A stretch of DNA of 21,623 bases from a virus: the IMG/VR virus record IMGVR_UViG_3300020478_000080, positions 1 through 21,623 of that record; one strand, 5' to 3'. Both the position numbers and the translations under genes were made by a program. The notes below the pieces were generated by a model that saw only the letters and a program-made list of their open reading frames with translations, did not search any database and was not told where the DNA came from. Of this stretch, positions 3,837 to 21,140 are shown in pieces (within the stretch, counting starts at the first letter, position 1; each line of letters opens with the position of its first letter).

Positions 3837-4556
3837 ATGCCTTTACCAAAGATTGCTACGCCAACATATGAGTTGGAATTACCCTCTACTGGAGAGACGA
3901 TAAAATACAGACCTTTTTTAGTTAAAGAAGAGAAGGTATTAGTTATTGCTCTAGAGAGTGAAGATAATAAACAAATCACTACTGCTATTAAAACAGTACT
4001 TAAAAGTTGTATTCAAACCAAAGGAATTAAAGTAGAAACACTTCCTACTTTTGACATTGAATATTTGTTCCTTAACATTAGAGGTAAGTCTGTTGGTGAG
4101 GTGATAGAAGTTAATGTAACTTGTCCTGATGATCAGGAGACTAGTGCTCAGATAGAAATTAATTTAGATGATATTAATGTTCAGAAGAATGAAGAGCATA
4201 CTAATCAAATTAAACTTGATGATAATATCATGATGGAATTGAGGTATCCATCATTGGAACAGTTTATTAAAACTAATTTTGATTTTTCAGATGACAATGC
4301 AATGGATCAATCATTCCAATTGATTGGCCAATGTATTGATAAAATTTATACTGAAGAAGAGGTTTGGAGTGCAGCAGATTGTACTAAGAAAGAGATTAAT
4401 GATTTCTTAGAGTCAATGAATTCATCACAGTTTAAGGATATTGAAAAATTCTTTGAGACAATGCCTAAACTACAGCATACTGTTACGGTTAAGAATCCAC
4501 AGACAAAGGTTGAAAGCGAGGTAGTAATTGAGGGACTGGCATCTTTTTTCGCATAG
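3837..4556 (+). CDS. 26: Baseplate hub assembly protein gp26 (tail-chaperone-like, frameshift donor)
   Basis: A 239-residue protein of the T4 gp26 family. In T4, gp26 is needed for hub assembly and is not prominent in the virion, which fits a chaperone role. It starts MPLPKIATPTYELELPSTGE, with the family segment KYRPFLVKEEKVLVIALES near residue 25 and a Cys-Pro motif (VTCPDD) near residue 97. The second half is largely helical. The ATG has a TAGGA ribosome binding site. The last sense codons, TCT TTT TTC GCA, contain a classical -1 slippery heptamer, so a share of ribosomes probably continues into the gp51-like frame, giving a 300-residue fusion (residues 1-238, then RIALIH, then the 56 residues of the small ORF). 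Its place just upstream of a tape-measure gene matches lambda gpG. Confidence 0.85.
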   Translation: MPLPKIATPTYELELPSTGETIKYRPFLVKEEKVLVIALESEDNKQITTAIKTVLKSCIQTKGIKVETLPTFDIEYLFLNIRGKSVGEVIEVNVTCPDDQETSAQIEINLDDINVQKNEEHTNQIKLDDNIMMELRYPSLEQFIKTNFDFSDDNAMDQSFQLIGQCIDKIYTEEEVWSAADCTKKEINDFLESMNSSQFKDIEKFFETMPKLQHTVTVKNPQTKVESEVVIEGLASFFA

Positions 4557-4584
4557 CTCTAATCCATATGGATTTAGAGAGCTA
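4544..4584 (+). promoter_or_regulatory. Putative programmed -1 ribosomal frameshift signal (slippery heptamer plus stem-loop)
   Basis: T TTT TTC at 4544-4550 fits the X XXY YYZ pattern in the gp26 frame (codons TTT and TTC). After slipping by -1, both tRNAs re-pair on TTT TTT. A 6-base spacer (4551-4556, containing the gp26 stop) is followed by a stem-loop. CTCTAA (4557-4562) pairs with TTAGAG (4574-4579), TCC (4563-4565) pairs with GGA (4570-4572), T4573 is bulged and the loop is ATAT. Outer bases TAG/CTA (4554-4556 with 4582-4584) can extend it. The -1 frame has no stop between 4544 and the gp51-like ATG (4568), which lies in the loop and top of the stem, and it continues to the stop at 4736-4738. 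Confidence 0.72.
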
Positions 4585-4738
4585 TTTCAGACTTAATTTT
4601 GCGTTGATGCAGTACCATAAATATTCATTAACAGAGATTGAAAACATGATACCTTGGGAAAGGGATATCTATGTTGCACTCTTAAAACAACATCTAGAAG
4701 AAGAAAAGTTAAAGCAGCAACAACAGCATGGCGGTTAA
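4568..4738 (+). CDS. 51: Small gp51-like protein, probably expressed as a gp26 frameshift extension
   Basis: A 56-residue ORF (MDLESYFRLNFALMQYHKY...) with a Gln-rich basic/acidic helical tail (LEEEKLKQQQQHGG). It occupies the place where cyanophage genomes carry a small gene that I recall being annotated as gp51, a baseplate hub assembly catalyst; T4 gp51 is much longer. The segment LTEIENMIPWERDIYVALLKQ resembles the T-domains of tail chaperones, which often end in a short E-x-x-x-M-P/W-E-x-x-x-Y helix. Its ATG has no Shine-Dalgarno sequence and lies within a predicted stem-loop, so independent starts are probably poor. The frame is open back to the slippery site in gp26. Its 3' end overlaps the tape-measure start by 11 bases, suggesting translational coupling. 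The gene number is tentative. Confidence 0.7.
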   Translation: MDLESYFRLNFALMQYHKYSLTEIENMIPWERDIYVALLKQHLEEEKLKQQQQHGG

Positions 4739-7313
4739 CTCTCAAAACATATCAGCATTAGTACCTGGAAAGGGTAAGGCTAGAGCGCAGCCTACTAGGG
4801 AAGTTGTTGATGAGAGGGTGTTAAGACTTCTTGGGATTGAAGCCTTTGAAGTCGAGATGGATTATGACACATATAAAGATGCTCTGAGAAGAGTTATGAT
4901 AGAAAGCCGTATGGGCGGCAGTAAATTACCATCAGAAGAAGCCGAAGCAGTAACTAATGAGTGGAGGAGAGTAAAGGGTAGAAAGGGTAGATTTATAGCA
5001 AAGAAAAAAGTAATAAAAGCAAAGGACATACAAAAAGCAGGTGCTACTAGTGGGTTAAGTAGGAAGGCTATTAGTGGTGCTGCTGTTGGGGTTCCTGCAG
5101 GTTTGTTGGCTGCAGCAGCCACTGCTCCACCTGCAGAAGGAAGGAGTGGCGTATTACAAGCAATTCAAGATTCTCTTGATAATATTGTTAAGGTTCTTAA
5201 GGAGCAAAATAAATTAGATAGAAAAGCAATTGAGAAGGATAGAAAGCAAAAATTAAGAACAAGAAGAGATAGATTAAAAGATAGTTTAAAGGGAGGTGCC
5301 AAGGCTGTAGCAACTACAGCAAAGAAGGTAATAAAACCAGTACAAAATATACTGGGTGATATTATGGGGGTACTTTTAAAATTGCTTTTTGGTAAAGCAT
5401 TATTAAAATTACTCAAATGGTTTTCTGATCCGGCGAATGATGAGAAGAAAGCGGCTTTGTTTAAATTTTTTAAAGATTTTTGGCCGATGATGACAGCTGC
5501 GGTGGTAGCATTTGGTACTGCAGTAGGTCCGATGATAGCTGGGTTGGTTAAAACGATCGGGGGATTTGTTGTGACTTTAGTGACTAAAATTATTCCTGGA
5601 CTTGTAAGTGCTTCAGTTGGATTGGCAAAACATTTAGGTTGGAAGGGATTGGCTATTGGTGGTGTTGCTGGTGCGGGATGGTTAGGAAATAAGTTATTAA
5701 ATCCTGATGAGGTTGCAAATAAAGCATCATCAGATCCAGATCCAGATTCAGATTCAGTTTCACCAACTCAAGGTGGAACTTCAGTTACACCAACTCCAAG
5801 TGCTCCTGACTCTGCATCAACTACATCATCATCTACTTCTAATAAGATTGATCCAGTTGATGTGTTGAATAAGAATAGACATCTTCTTCCAAATATTCCA
5901 TTTATGGATCCATATCAAATAGTTTTAGATAAGATTAATGAAGATCCATCGGCATATGATACTAAAGCGAAAATTGAGGCTGCTCTTAATGAAGCTGGTA
6001 TAGATACAAGTAAAGTAAGATATGCTACAGGTGGTTTTGTATCAGGACCTGGAGGAGTAGATAGAGTCTCTGCAAAACTAACTGCTGGCGAGTTTGTTAT
6101 GAGTAAGGGTGCTGTAGATAAATGGGGTACAGATACTCTTGCTGCTATGAATGCTGCGGGTGGTGGTACAAATAATCCTTCTTTTGGTAGATATAATACT
6201 GGCGGAAAGGTTGAGAAACCTAAGTCTACTCAAGAAGAACAAAGGGAGAAAGATAATAAAGGTGGTGGTCTTTGGGGTTGGGCTCGTGGTCTTATGGGGT
6301 TTGGTACTGATGATAAACCGGTCACAGGAGACTTAGGTGAAGGAACTGATTTTGCTAAGAGAAGTGGTACGGAGAAGGGAGGTATATCTAGAAATGCAAA
6401 AGCACTTCTTAATACTATTAGATGGGCAGAAGGTACTTTAAAACCTGGTGGATATAATACTTGGTTTGGTGGTCGTACTGATATGGATCTTACTAGAATG
6501 TCCATTGATGAAGTTGTTGCTGAACAGAAGAGAAGACTTAGTGCAGGTGAAGCAACTTATGGAAGATATACATCTGCAGCGGTTGGTGCATATCAGATGA
6601 TGCTACCGGATGAATTTGCCTCTAGGGCAGGTTTAAATGGTAGTTCTTTATTCACACCAGAGAATCAAGATAAGATGGCTATTGCTGCTTATATGAAGGG
6701 CAAGCTGACAAATAAAGAAATTGATAGTCCCATTACTAGAGAGACGATAGCAAAAATAGCAGGCGTATGGGCATCTCTTCCTACAATGAGTGGAGCAAGT
6801 GCTCATGGTCAACCAGTTAAAAAATATTCAGATCTTGAAAAAGTATATAATAAAAATTTAAAATCATTAGATCCTAATTCATATTCAACATCAACTACAT
6901 CAATAGCTTTAGGGAAGGGAAGTACTAGTGTTCCTGGTCAACAACCTGGTCAACAACCTGGTAAAACTGGAGATTCGGCAACAGGTTCAGAGTATGCCAG
7001 AGCAATATCTGATGCAGAAATTGATGCATTAATAGCCTCAGAATTTGGAGGTGCTCAACAAAGAGGATTTAATAGACCTCCTCAGACTAAATTTAGTCCT
7101 GTTGCAAAAGCGACTCCACCTTCACCACCTTCACATTCACTTCAGTCAATTGGAGATGCAATCAAGAGAGGTGATACTAAAGGTGGTGATTCAACAGTAA
7201 TGACTATTCCTGAGTCTTCTGCCAATGCAGGAACTCAGTTGCCACAGTTTGATGTTTCATCTCATGCTCTTCAGATTGAGAGATCATCCACCGTTTTAGG
7301 AATAAACGCATAA
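4728..7313 (+). CDS. Tape-measure-like virion protein with C-terminal lysozyme domain
   Basis: An 861-residue protein that I read as a tail tape measure. Order of parts: an acidic/basic N-terminus (MDYDTYKDALRRVMIESRMG near residue 45), an Ala-rich hydrophobic stretch (about 118-138), a charged coiled-coil-like segment (150-190), a long hydrophobic region able to cross a membrane (about 250-320), a Ser/Thr/Pro/Asp linker (330-375), and a tape-measure C-terminal motif from residue 432 (YATGGFVSGPGGVDRVSAKL, then AGEFVMSKGAV). A lambda-endolysin-type domain follows (about 557-690), with candidate catalytic Glu568 in IRWAEGT and the signature AAVGAYQMM around Tyr622-Gln623. It would set tail length and degrade peptidoglycan during entry. 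The start overlaps the gp51-like ORF, and there is little ribosome binding signal of its own. Confidence 0.72.
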   Translation: MAVNSQNISALVPGKGKARAQPTREVVDERVLRLLGIEAFEVEMDYDTYKDALRRVMIESRMGGSKLPSEEAEAVTNEWRRVKGRKGRFIAKKKVIKAKDIQKAGATSGLSRKAISGAAVGVPAGLLAAAATAPPAEGRSGVLQAIQDSLDNIVKVLKEQNKLDRKAIEKDRKQKLRTRRDRLKDSLKGGAKAVATTAKKVIKPVQNILGDIMGVLLKLLFGKALLKLLKWFSDPANDEKKAALFKFFKDFWPMMTAAVVAFGTAVGPMIAGLVKTIGGFVVTLVTKIIPGLVSASVGLAKHLGWKGLAIGGVAGAGWLGNKLLNPDEVANKASSDPDPDSDSVSPTQGGTSVTPTPSAPDSASTTSSSTSNKIDPVDVLNKNRHLLPNIPFMDPYQIVLDKINEDPSAYDTKAKIEAALNEAGIDTSKVRYATGGFVSGPGGVDRVSAKLTAGEFVMSKGAVDKWGTDTLAAMNAAGGGTNNPSFGRYNTGGKVEKPKSTQEEQREKDNKGGGLWGWARGLMGFGTDDKPVTGDLGEGTDFAKRSGTEKGGISRNAKALLNTIRWAEGTLKPGGYNTWFGGRTDMDLTRMSIDEVVAEQKRRLSAGEATYGRYTSAAVGAYQMMLPDEFASRAGLNGSSLFTPENQDKMAIAAYMKGKLTNKEIDSPITRETIAKIAGVWASLPTMSGASAHGQPVKKYSDLEKVYNKNLKSLDPNSYSTSTTSIALGKGSTSVPGQQPGQQPGKTGDSATGSEYARAISDAEIDALIASEFGGAQQRGFNRPPQTKFSPVAKATPPSPPSHSLQSIGDAIKRGDTKGGDSTVMTIPESSANAGTQLPQFDVSSHALQIERSSTVLGINA

Positions 7314-9933: not shown

Positions 9934-11331
9934 ATGGTAGCCCAGAACTCAAAAAAACAAAAGGTATTTTCTAAAAAATCGGAATCAGGTGAAGTACAAG
10001 CTATTAACGTGATTTCTAACAAGCAAGGTGGGGGATCTGTTAATCTTGCTGGAGCACTTGGTGAATTGAGGTACTTTGAAAATATTCGTGATAAAGGTAT
10101 TAGAGCATCAGTAGCTTATACTGACAGTGGAAATACTGAGATAAAAGGTGGTGGTGGAGGAGGAGGTCAATTGGGGAGGAAGAATGAGTCTTCAGGTAAC
10201 AATAGATCTATTCTTGATGAACTTCCAATAGTTGGGGAAGAAAAAACTACGTTTAAAATGGTTGATAATAATGATCAAGAGTTGACTTTTACTATGTTTA
10301 TAAAGGATGTTAAACCAATAGCAGAAACCACTCAGAAGAATGGTGTATTCTTAACATTTCAATCAAAAGAAATGTTTTTAAATGATAATGGAGAGACTAG
10401 AGTTCGGGGAAAACATACAGGTAAAATATCAGATATTATTAAAAAAATTATTACTGGCGATACTCATTTGCAAAGTGAGAAGGATGTAAGTGAGTGGACT
10501 GATACAATGAATGACTATGTAGTTTGGGGTAATAATAGAAAACCTTTTGCTTTTATTGATTTGTTACAAAAGAAAGCAATTCCAAAAGAGGCTACTCCAG
10601 GAACGAGTGCTGGATTTTTTCTTTGGGAGACCTCAGAAGGATTTCAATTTAAATCGATTGAGAATTTGGTGCAGCAAGAACCTGTTAAGAGATATATTTT
10701 TAATGAATCTCAAGACAAGAGAGGAAAAGATGTTCCTTCACAATATGATGGTAAAGTATTGGAGTTGACTGGTCCGAGTAATATAGATGTTCAAAAGAAA
10801 AAAGATATTGGTGGATATGCTGGAAGAGTTATTGTATTTGATCCATTTGATTGTAAGTATGAAGTTATTGAACAACCACGAGATGAAACAACAGGGAAAT
10901 TGTCAGAGTATGCTGGTGATGAATTGCCAAAATTTAATGATGAACTTAAAACAAATTATACAAGGACATCATATTTTTGTGTTGATAGGGGAGTGGCATA
11001 TGCTGAGGTTGAAAAATCAAAAGAGATAAATTTTAGACCTGAACTTGCTGTAAGTCAGGCTACAATGAGATATAATCAGTTATTTACTATTCAAAAAACT
11101 ATTACTATACCAGGAGATTTTTCTTTGCATGCTGGAGACGCTATTTTTCTTGATATTCCAGAGGTATCTGACAAAGATGTTCAAGTTCCAAACAAGGAGG
11201 TAGGTGGCATATATATTATATCAGAGTTGTGTCATTACATGACTCCTCAACATTGCCTTACCAAGTTACATTTAGTTAGAGATTCATATGGGAGAAGAAA
11301 AGCACCGAAGTCAACACCTAAACCTGTATGA
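9934..11331 (+). CDS. Baseplate hub protein, gp27-like
   Basis: A 465-residue protein placed between the tape-measure-like genes and gp5, where T4-type and other contractile tails encode the hub protein (gp27 in T4) that forms the ring joining tube, spike and baseplate. Near the N-terminus GELRYFENIRDKGIRASVAYTDSG is the opening I associate with hub proteins in cyanophages. A short Gly run (GGGGGGG, about residue 73) interrupts the first domain. Later parts (TFTMFIKDVKPI; IPGDFSLHAGDAIFLDIPE; ISELCHYMTPQHCLTKLHLVRD at the end) look like the tube-like beta domains of gp27 and gpD-type hubs, where the last segment is often the best conserved. T4 gp27 is 391 residues. The AAGGA site fixes the start. 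The hub role is fairly likely from context; the exact gp27 orthology is less certain. Confidence 0.6.
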   Translation: MVAQNSKKQKVFSKKSESGEVQAINVISNKQGGGSVNLAGALGELRYFENIRDKGIRASVAYTDSGNTEIKGGGGGGGQLGRKNESSGNNRSILDELPIVGEEKTTFKMVDNNDQELTFTMFIKDVKPIAETTQKNGVFLTFQSKEMFLNDNGETRVRGKHTGKISDIIKKIITGDTHLQSEKDVSEWTDTMNDYVVWGNNRKPFAFIDLLQKKAIPKEATPGTSAGFFLWETSEGFQFKSIENLVQQEPVKRYIFNESQDKRGKDVPSQYDGKVLELTGPSNIDVQKKKDIGGYAGRVIVFDPFDCKYEVIEQPRDETTGKLSEYAGDELPKFNDELKTNYTRTSYFCVDRGVAYAEVEKSKEINFRPELAVSQATMRYNQLFTIQKTITIPGDFSLHAGDAIFLDIPEVSDKDVQVPNKEVGGIYIISELCHYMTPQHCLTKLHLVRDSYGRRKAPKSTPKPV

Positions 11332-11347
11332 ATTAAATCAAGATGGG

Positions 11348-11698
11348 ATGAATCCACAACGGCGTAGGCATTTACAAAATGAGATAAGTGAATTAGAATC
11401 ACAACTACAAATGGAAGGAGAATCTTCTATGACAAACACTACTCAGCACGATCTAGACCATGAAGTTTATATTGACCCTAAAGATCATAAAGAACATATC
11501 AATCATGGTATGCTAGAGTACACTGAAGAAGATTTAAAAACATCTCATGCTTATTATGATGAGTATCATAAAGGTGATGAGGTAAATTCAAATGAAGGTA
11601 AGATTAATGATTACCATACACGACATCAGGATCAGCATTTAGAAGTGTATTGTGAGAATCATCCAGACGCTATGGAATGTAGGGTATACGACGAATAA
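11348..11698 (+). CDS. Small acidic protein of unknown function between gp27-like gene and gp5
   Basis: I do not recognise this protein. From the ATG chosen here it has 116 residues. The frame is open from an earlier ATG at 11288 (136 residues, overlapping the hub gene by 44 bases). A third in-frame ATG at 11429 gives 89 residues and has the best ribosome binding site, AAGGAG eight bases upstream. I chose 11348 because it lies just after the hub gene stop and keeps the helical stretch RRRHLQNEISELESQLQ, but 11429 is a serious alternative. The protein is hydrophilic and rich in His, Asp, Glu and Tyr (YIDPKDHKEHINHG; YHTRHQDQHLEVYCENHPD), with no membrane segment. The position resembles T4 gene 28, without visible similarity that I can defend. 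The His-rich composition could bind metal. Confidence 0.62.
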   Translation: MNPQRRRHLQNEISELESQLQMEGESSMTNTTQHDLDHEVYIDPKDHKEHINHGMLEYTEEDLKTSHAYYDEYHKGDEVNSNEGKINDYHTRHQDQHLEVYCENHPDAMECRVYDE

Positions 11699-18981: not shown

Positions 18982-19743
18982 ATGTCGTGGTTATTTGATG
19001 ATACTGCAACAGGAGGTCAGCAATGTGTTGGCGCAGGAATGCCCAAGGCTTTGGGTTTAGGTGCCACAAAGATTAATGGGTCTTCTTTTATTGAAGGACC
19101 TCAGGTAGTTGGAAGTGCGGGTTCTTGGCCATTTGTTGGAGCAACTTTAATGGTTGGTCCTTTAACTAATATTGAATCTCCTAAACCCCTAATCCCCGGC
19201 GCATTGTGTAGTGGAGTTAATAATCCATACTCCTTAGGAGTGAGAGGATCTTCTGCTTTTATGGGGATGGTGGATACCAATTTAAATGTTAATGTTGGTA
19301 TGCATTTGATTGCACAAGGACATGTGATATCTAATTGTGGTGGTCATATTTTAGCAGCAAAGAAAAACTTTGATATCAAGCATCCTACCAGGGAAGGGTA
19401 TAGATTACGACATACTTGTCCAGAAGCACCACAAAATGATGTATATATACGCGGCAAGGTTACTAATAAAAAAGAGATTGAACTTCCTAAGTATTGGAAA
19501 GGGTTGGTAGACACACAATCTATTACAGTATCACTTACTCCTATTGGTGCTCATCAAAATGTTATTGTGAAGAGAGTTGATGAGGACAAAGTATATCTCC
19601 AGGCACAAGGTGGAATGCCAATCAATTGTTACTATCATATCTTTGGAGAGAGAAAGGATGGTGAGAAACTCATTCCAGAGTACCAGGGCTTGACACCAGA
19701 GGACTATCCAGGCGATAATAGTGAATATAATATAAACACTTGA
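18982..19743 (+). CDS. Tip or fiber-type virion protein with C-terminal KNFDI/HP module (paralog 1)
   Basis: A 253-residue protein. The N-terminal 100 residues are rich in Gly, Ser and Pro (GAGMPKALGLGATKINGSS; VVGSAGSWPFVGATLMVGP) and faintly recall PAAR-type spike-tip proteins, but I cannot confirm that. Residues 122-250 form a module starting GGHILAAKKNFDIKHPTREG, followed by RLRHTCPEAPQNDVYIRGKV, ELPKYWKGLVD, VSLTPIGAHQN, YHIFGERKDGEK and PEDYPGDN. The same module ends the protein at 20433. A similar K-N-F-x-I-x-H-P / Y-x-G / L-P-x-x-[FW] / L-T-x-[IL]-G pattern is, from memory, found at the C-terminus of many bacterial surface-type proteins. Position after the spike candidate suggests a role at the tail tip or baseplate periphery. 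It has the strongest ribosome binding site in the window. Confidence 0.68.
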   Translation: MSWLFDDTATGGQQCVGAGMPKALGLGATKINGSSFIEGPQVVGSAGSWPFVGATLMVGPLTNIESPKPLIPGALCSGVNNPYSLGVRGSSAFMGMVDTNLNVNVGMHLIAQGHVISNCGGHILAAKKNFDIKHPTREGYRLRHTCPEAPQNDVYIRGKVTNKKEIELPKYWKGLVDTQSITVSLTPIGAHQNVIVKRVDEDKVYLQAQGGMPINCYYHIFGERKDGEKLIPEYQGLTPEDYPGDNSEYNINT

Positions 19744-20432: not shown

Positions 20433-21140
20433 ATGGCAATACCCCCAATTCCTTCAGAAGCAACTACAGATCCTGATAAACTTGATTTTGTACCACATGC
20501 AATAGGAAGTCCGAATTGTGATGATGGAATGCATTGGGGTAGACCGTCATCATTGTATTCTTACATTATGAAAGGTCTGACTGGAGATGATCAAAAATAT
20601 CCAGAGGCGTGTGAACCTTGGTATCATAAGAATTTTCAGGTTGATAATGTTCAATTAAACAGTAGTATAATTGGGGGTGGATCTGTTCTTGTTAATGGTG
20701 ATGTTAATGTTGGAGGAGAGGTGTCATCTAATGATGGAGGACATGTTCTTTCAAATAAAAAGAATTTTGATATTCCTCACCCAACTAAAGATGGTCATCG
20801 ATTGAGACATGTATGTATTGAAGGTCCGAGTGCTGATGTTTATGTGAGAGGAAAACTTAAGGATGATAATGTAATAAAATTGCCTGAATATTGGCGTGGA
20901 TTGGTTGATCCAGAGTCAATTGATGTTTCTTTAACTCCACTTGGAAATTTCCAAGAACTTTTTGTTGAGAAGATGGAGTGGGGATCAAAGGTTATTGTTA
21001 AAAATGCTGCAGGTGGTTCAATTAATTGTAGTTATGTTGTATATGGTGAGAGAATTGATTGTGAGAAGAACATTGCAGAGTATGAAGGTAAATCCTTAGA
21101 GGATTATCCTGGCGATAACGATCAGTATACTCATAAGTGA
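20433..21140 (+). CDS. Tip or fiber-type virion protein with C-terminal KNFDI/HP module (paralog 2)
   Basis: A 235-residue protein. The N-terminal 75 residues are unlike paralog 1 and contain a Trp/Tyr/Cys-rich stretch (NCDDGMHWGRPSSLYSYIM). A short beta-type run follows (SSIIGGGSVLVNGDVNVGGEV), typical of fiber shafts. From about residue 103 the C-terminal module parallels paralog 1: GGHVLSNKKNFDIPHPTKDG, RLRHVCIEGPSADVYVRGKL, KLPEYWRGLVD, VSLTPLGNFQE, YVVYGERIDCEK and LEDYPGDN. A GAGGT ribosome binding site lies seven bases before the ATG. It is the last gene of the late run; its stop codon is followed at once by a sigma70-type promoter. The role is probably structural at the tail tip or fibers. 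Confidence 0.7.
   Translation: MAIPPIPSEATTDPDKLDFVPHAIGSPNCDDGMHWGRPSSLYSYIMKGLTGDDQKYPEACEPWYHKNFQVDNVQLNSSIIGGGSVLVNGDVNVGGEVSSNDGGHVLSNKKNFDIPHPTKDGHRLRHVCIEGPSADVYVRGKLKDDNVIKLPEYWRGLVDPESIDVSLTPLGNFQELFVEKMEWGSKVIVKNAAGGSINCSYVVYGERIDCEKNIAEYEGKSLEDYPGDNDQYTHK

Follow-up and report, generated by a model that had tools for sequence, protein, structure and literature searches.

The closest described counterparts of the locus analyzed here are the two-form tail assembly chaperones (TACs) of tailed phages. In phage lambda, the slippery site is G GGA AAG, and the two forms, gpG and gpGT, are made in a ratio of about 30:1. The E. coli dnaX frameshift signal consists of three parts, a Shine-Dalgarno (SD)-like element upstream, the slippery heptamer A_AAA_AAG and a hairpin downstream. 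In T4-like phages, frameshifting is reportedly conserved in several groups, and T4 itself is said to use genes 26 and 51. The TAC genes of T4-like phages were identified by Vladimirov, Gautam and Davidson (Virology 2022;566:9-15; as cited in PMC10885494 and PMC12846349). In the passage of the PRFect paper that cites this work, T4-like phages have one short and one fused long gene (PMC10885494), and in the corresponding passage of the study of phage Adele, T4-like TAC-N genes carry poly-T slippery signals (PMC12846349). The part of the Adele study that deals with Vandenendeviridae and Andersonviridae describes TAC loci with a conserved GTTTTT at the TAC-N end and an open -1 frame (PMC12846349).

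We analyzed a window of 21,623 nucleotides (the whole stretch of DNA under study) from a marine T4-like virus, in which gp26 is followed by a gp51-like open reading frame (ORF) and a large third gene (Table 1). The window's gp26 is homologous to T4 gp26, matching Pfam T4_baseplate (E 1.6e-77) and PHROG_150 (E 1.2e-81). Its 3' codons are TCT (4542), TTT (4545), TTC (4548), GCA (4551) and the TAG stop, so that a poly-T slippery heptamer lies in phase near the TAC-N end, with GCA as the sole sense codon separating its TTC from the stop. Reading after a -1 slip would continue as CGC ATA GCT CTA ATC CAT ATG and onward to the TAA at 4736-4738, and the predicted fusion (TAC-NC) would comprise gp26 residues 1-238 plus 62 further residues, 300 in all. 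The ATG of the small ORF lies within a predicted fold, and the best anti-SD energy there is +1.3 kcal/mol. On all of these points, namely the phase of the heptamer, the open -1 frame through the small ORF, and a start codon in a hairpin and lacking an SD sequence, the initial annotation was accurate. By count, the bare motif TTTTTTC is not unusual in the window (15 on both strands versus 10.3 +/- 2.6 expected), and its rarity was dropped as a line of evidence. Because the bare heptamer is not rare here, the case for frameshifting rests on conservation across relatives.

Table 1. Features of the gp26-gp51 junction and its surroundings in the window.
Feature	Coordinates	Strand	Remarks
gp26, putative short tail assembly chaperone (TAC-N), 239 aa	3837..4556	+	stop TAG 4554-4556
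SD-like GAGGGA, candidate stimulator	4530..4535	+	8 nt upstream of heptamer
Slippery heptamer T TTT TTC	4544..4550	+	in gp26 phase for a -1 slip
Predicted -1 frame extension (TAC-C), 62 residues after slip	4550..4738	+	PHROG_634, E 1e-29
Predicted downstream hairpin, 13 bp, 4-nt loop, 3-nt bulge	4553..4585	+	-14 kcal/mol, z -3.7
Covarying core helix	4561..4574	+	4561-4565/4570-4574, apical 5 bp
gp51-like ORF as annotated in relatives, 56 aa	4568..4738	+	ATG inside hairpin, without SD
Next gene, candidate tape measure protein, 861 aa	4728..7313	+	overlaps -1 ORF by 11 bases

Among the first gp26 relatives retrieved from IMG/VR, 79/79 carry the heptamer in phase together with an open -1 frame. 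In a wider set, deduplicated by sequence and with the window represented by L093, in-phase TTTTTTC or TTTTTTT with an open -1 frame occurs at 133 of the 136 distinct loci. Families in this set include Kyanoviridae, Straboviridae and Pootjesviridae, and the carriers include P-SSM2, Syn10, a KVP40-like phage, Cronobacter S13, Aeromonas AsFcp_2, OLIVR5, Desulfovibrio phage 7757, Cr30 and Melnitz; Moby, S-H34, S-CRM01 and the jumbo phage Atu_ph07 are four further carriers beyond it. Scans of viral contigs recovered few loci with Cr30, KVP40-like and Aeromonas queries and none with a Vibrio D533 query. Across cyanomyoviruses, where the initial annotation had proposed to look for conservation, heptamer, phase and open -1 frame are kept, and these counts show that they are also kept well beyond that group. 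On the gp26 tree, the first Phe codon shows 0 third-base changes and the second 3, compared with 4-46 at 23 other two-fold columns, and all 3 are TTC to TTT, which leaves the site slippery. The codon before the Phe pair changed 31 times (variants are AGT, TCT, GAT, AAT, GCT and GGT) and ends in T at 132/132 loci. TTC occupies the slip position at 127/127 loci chosen for the heptamer (these codon-usage counts exclude L093) and at 128/132 loci taken without that choice; elsewhere in gp26, Phe is encoded by TTC in 30% and by TTT in 70% of cases. With its third bases frozen and the neighboring codon varying but always T-ending, the heptamer appears to be under selection on nucleotides, not amino acids, and by these comparisons its conservation is far beyond chance.

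The -1 frame bears a signature of its own. Immediately after the slip, its first codon specifies Arg at 125 of 128 loci (L093 included) through four synonymous codons, CGC, CGG, CGA and CGT, with A, G, V, E, D, S or I as the overlapping zero-frame residue. Later -1 residues are also constrained (I/V/L at the second, L/M at the fourth and His at the sixth, the last in 117/128), all of them upstream of the window's ATG. That ATG is not conserved across loci, its position being T, D, E or N in other clades, and 24 of the 133 loci have no ATG, GTG or TTG in the -1 frame within 35 nt after the gp26 stop. Judged from this codon pattern, protein-level conservation in the -1 frame sets in with the very first codon past the slip. 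In Cyanophage Syn10 (L086:4214-4411), the gp51 domain is unannotated and has no ATG near its start, as would be expected if it were reached by frameshift only.

Two further elements flank the heptamer. Downstream, predicted pairing joins 4553-4565 with 4570-4574 and 4578-4585. The initial annotation had described a 9-pair stem-loop with one bulge; the stem-loop, the bulge and the 4-nt loop are recovered, and the size is revised to 13 predicted pairs. Within the core helix, changes on both sides occur at 5/5 pairs, with 45 such cells versus 10.1 in shuffles (0/500), figures to be read with the relatedness of the loci in mind, which makes shuffle and null standard deviations overstate significance and for which the tree test corrects at the heptamer only. 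Sliding the partner column by one loses most of this covariation. The 77 loci of the window-like clade have a mean downstream folding energy of -6.5 versus -2.6 +/- 0.22 for a synonymous-codon null, and the 17 loci of the P-SSM2-like clade have -4.9 versus -1.9. By the same measure, the Syn10-like clade (23 loci) has no excess downstream structure (-1.0 versus -1.2), and non-cyanophage loci give a mixed result. A universal hairpin was therefore rejected: with no stem in the Syn10-like clade, it cannot be required in every lineage. Conservation of the stem, about which the initial annotation had asked, accordingly holds for the window's clade, where compensatory changes are found, and fails for the Syn10-like one. 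In the window's clade, an X XXY YYZ heptamer is followed by downstream structure, the combination that defines a candidate programmed -1 frameshift site. Rfam has no match at 4400-4800. As a separate observation in the window-like clade, a stretch of the gp51 domain at window positions 4644-4680 (stop+90 to stop+126) folds at -6.4 versus a synonymous null of -4.7 (sd 0.24).

Upstream of the heptamer, GAG GGN or GAA GGG is in excess relative to gp26 codon usage, GAG accounting for 75% at the SD-like site versus 31% elsewhere in gp26 and GGG for 23% versus 5%. The anti-SD energy at this site is -7.15 versus a synonymous null of -5.79 +/- 0.14 (best of 200 sets, -6.25), in a test that used the E. 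coli anti-SD sequence and in which the null standard deviation is too small because the loci are related. GAGGGA may possibly be a stimulator of the dnaX type.

What kind of protein would be made? The AlphaFold model of gp26 has a pLDDT of 86.7, and its residues 1-86 best match the HK97 tail assembly chaperone 2ob9 (Z 8.0, borderline), followed by RBSTP2171 3fgx (Z 7.6) and YqbN 3klu (Z 7.3). Lower matches are a V. cholerae PICI-like protein (Z 4.8) and unrelated rows (about 2), and the first three stand well above the unrelated rows, as expected of a short form with a TAC fold. Foldseek alone gave a weak E of 0.66 for the gp26 match to a TAC, and a PDB sequence search with gp26 and gp51 profiles returned nothing useful; the TACs were found by fold comparison only. 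The T4-like phage p000v offers a second line of evidence. Its gp51, a protein of 250 aa encoded on the strand opposite to gp26, aligns over its first ~200 residues with the gp26 family (hhalign probability 95.6, E 1.3e-8) and over residues 200-245 with the -1 ORF family (hhalign probability 74, E 2.7e-5). Similarly, PHROG_150, the gp26 family, spans T4-like gp51 end to end, and PHROG_634 matches both T4-like gp51 and the -1 ORF, so that by hhalign and PHROG_634 alike the -1 ORF corresponds to the C-terminal domain of T4 gp51. T4-like gp51 is thus a gp26-like part plus TAC-C, and the fusion predicted here by frameshifting exists in the T4 group as an ordinary gene. These alignments of gp51 to both gp26 and the small ORF favor the earlier suggestion that T4 gp26/gp51 is a split version of the same system. 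A single in-frame gp51, opposite to gp26 and next to gp27, provides the long form in T4-like coliphages, Biquartavirus avDM1 and Hadassahvirus Mokit (L081:2659-3411, L188:1489-2235, L189:1315-2070).

For the gene that follows, the initial annotation had claimed an overlap and a tape-measure-like product. The overlap is present, and the one indication for the product is a weak PHROG tape-measure match (E 3e-4, residues 417-478), found next to an endolysin-family match. This 861-aa protein has no Pfam or NCBIfam match and no meaningful similarity to its positional counterpart in P-SSM2, and the following 862-aa protein likewise has a tape-measure match (8.5e-6). Elsewhere in the window, a 136-aa ORF in the tail/baseplate gene cluster (11288-11698), which shares 44 bases with the tail gene before it, matches the CP12 domain with its C-terminal residues (Pfam E 2.3e-7), and two neighboring paralogues of phrog_17490, of unknown function (18982-19743 and 20433-21140), flank a 2OG-Fe(II) oxygenase-like gene.

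We conclude with high confidence that gp26 would yield a short TAC and also, by a -1 slip on T TTT TTC, the 300-residue TAC-NC. A fraction of the ribosomes translating gp26 would slip back one base at the heptamer, both Phe-tRNAs would re-pair on TTT TTT, and the slipped ribosomes would pass the TAG in the -1 frame to make a long protein with a gp51-like C-terminal domain. The close downstream stop, the hairpin and the upstream GAGGGA would probably raise the efficiency of this event. By analogy with lambda gpG, the short form would be expected to coat the tape measure protein; the long form, like gpGT, would be the rarer of the two and would bring in tube subunits. Given the conserved heptamer, the selection on the -1 frame, the TAC-like fold of the gp26 model and the natural fusion in T4-like gp51, gp26 and gp26-51 very probably represent TAC-N and TAC-NC, the counterparts of lambda G and GT, as had been proposed from the window alone. 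We infer the chaperone function and, from selection, the occurrence and efficiency of the shift and the stimulatory roles.

A slip is not the only way in which the gp51 domain could be produced. It could be a small protein in its own right, translated by re-initiation at an ATG that closely follows the stop of gp26, in which case the heptamer would be incidental. Public records do annotate gp51 as its own gene, and at 102 of the 133 loci an in-frame ATG follows the gp26 stop at a distance of no more than 35 nt. We consider this highly improbable as the sole route: conserved -1 residues upstream of the window's ATG, together with the 24 loci without a nearby start, make a separate gp51 insufficient as an explanation by itself, and the absence of an SD sequence at the window's ATG, the freezing of the heptamer while its neighbors vary, and the fused nature of T4-like gp51 all point the same way. 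The frequency of a nearby ATG would permit some independent gp51, so that a frameshifted TAC-NC might be accompanied by some free gp51 domain from internal starts in clades that keep the ATG. Most window-like loci have such an ATG, and phage genes a short distance apart are often translationally coupled; against this, the window's ATG is buried in the hairpin and lacks an SD sequence, and the Met position is replaced in other clades. A combination of the two routes is unlikely, if less so than re-initiation only.

The fusion could also arise before translation, since homopolymer T runs can cause transcriptional slippage, and RNA polymerase, rather than the ribosome, might slip on the T6 run. 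A run of T7 in place of T6 in a few loci (Cr30, Melnitz, L179 and L180) would suit this route. However, T6C is found at the same codon in 128 of 133 loci despite TTT being the commoner Phe codon, which argues that longer runs are avoided, not selected, and an exactly phased site with an SD-like element and a stem is in keeping with slippage by the ribosome. Of the routes weighed here, we give slippage by the polymerase the smallest chance.

Not all relatives would decode the two forms in this way. In Ackermannviridae-like Vibrio and Aeromonas phages, gp26 is followed by a gp51 domain in the -1 frame without a canonical heptamer (L085:4180-4240, L092:4040-4100, and near the gp26 stop in L182-L184 and L190); their U-runs are shorter (CTT TTT, GTT TTT, CTT TTC), with a TAATG overlap in the Vibrio ones. 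The TAATG overlap suggests re-initiation or P-site slippage in these phages. The T4 superfamily may have one two-form chaperone decoded in at least three ways, a proposal to which, taken as a whole, we give an even chance: (i) a clade-variable signal, in which a U6C heptamer would act with an SD-like element upstream and a hairpin reshaped or lost from one clade to the next; (ii) two genes, one short and one long, in T4-like coliphages and in some further Straboviridae; and (iii) the shorter, non-canonical U-run of Ackermannviridae-like phages, most with the TAATG overlap. If true, the different lineages would provide a natural experiment on the means by which viruses hold two protein forms at a set ratio. 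No annotated record examined carries a joined gene: gp26 and gp51 are either listed apart, each as a 'baseplate hub' gene, or gp51 is left out. Recognition of a recoded TAC would correct this annotation in hundreds of genomes of cyanophages and other T4-like phages, in agreement with the 2022 identification of TACs in T4-like phages, and the loci would form a broad comparative collection for finding which of the signals (SD-like element, hairpin, nearby stop) govern how much of each form is made.

How does the locus compare with known systems? Lambda gpG/gpGT differs in its slip site (T TTT TTC here) and in that the window virus is a contractile-tail phage. E. coli dnaX has the same three-part layout and differs in its A_AAA_AAG site and in being a cellular gene, the SD and hairpin roles here being putative. 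The TAC loci of Vandenendeviridae and Andersonviridae, in the part of the Adele study that describes them, are alike in that the TAC-N end carries a motif and the -1 frame stays open; the families differ, as does the motif, GTTTTT there and U UUU UUC here. In our literature search, which does not exclude such a report, we found none on cyanophages specifically, on a covarying hairpin or on an SD-like element, and what seems to be new is the extent of the system, the covarying stem, the SD-like element and the lineages with other modes. The initial annotation knew of no description in T4-like cyanophages; the kind of system was already published for T4-like phages in 2022. To the T4-like TAC-N/TAC-NC genes of Vladimirov et al. 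(2022), as represented in the papers that cite them, the likeness lies in the kind of gene pair, its arrangement and the poly-T site at the TAC-N end. With that identification in place, the gene pair of the window is a well-supported instance of an already known system.
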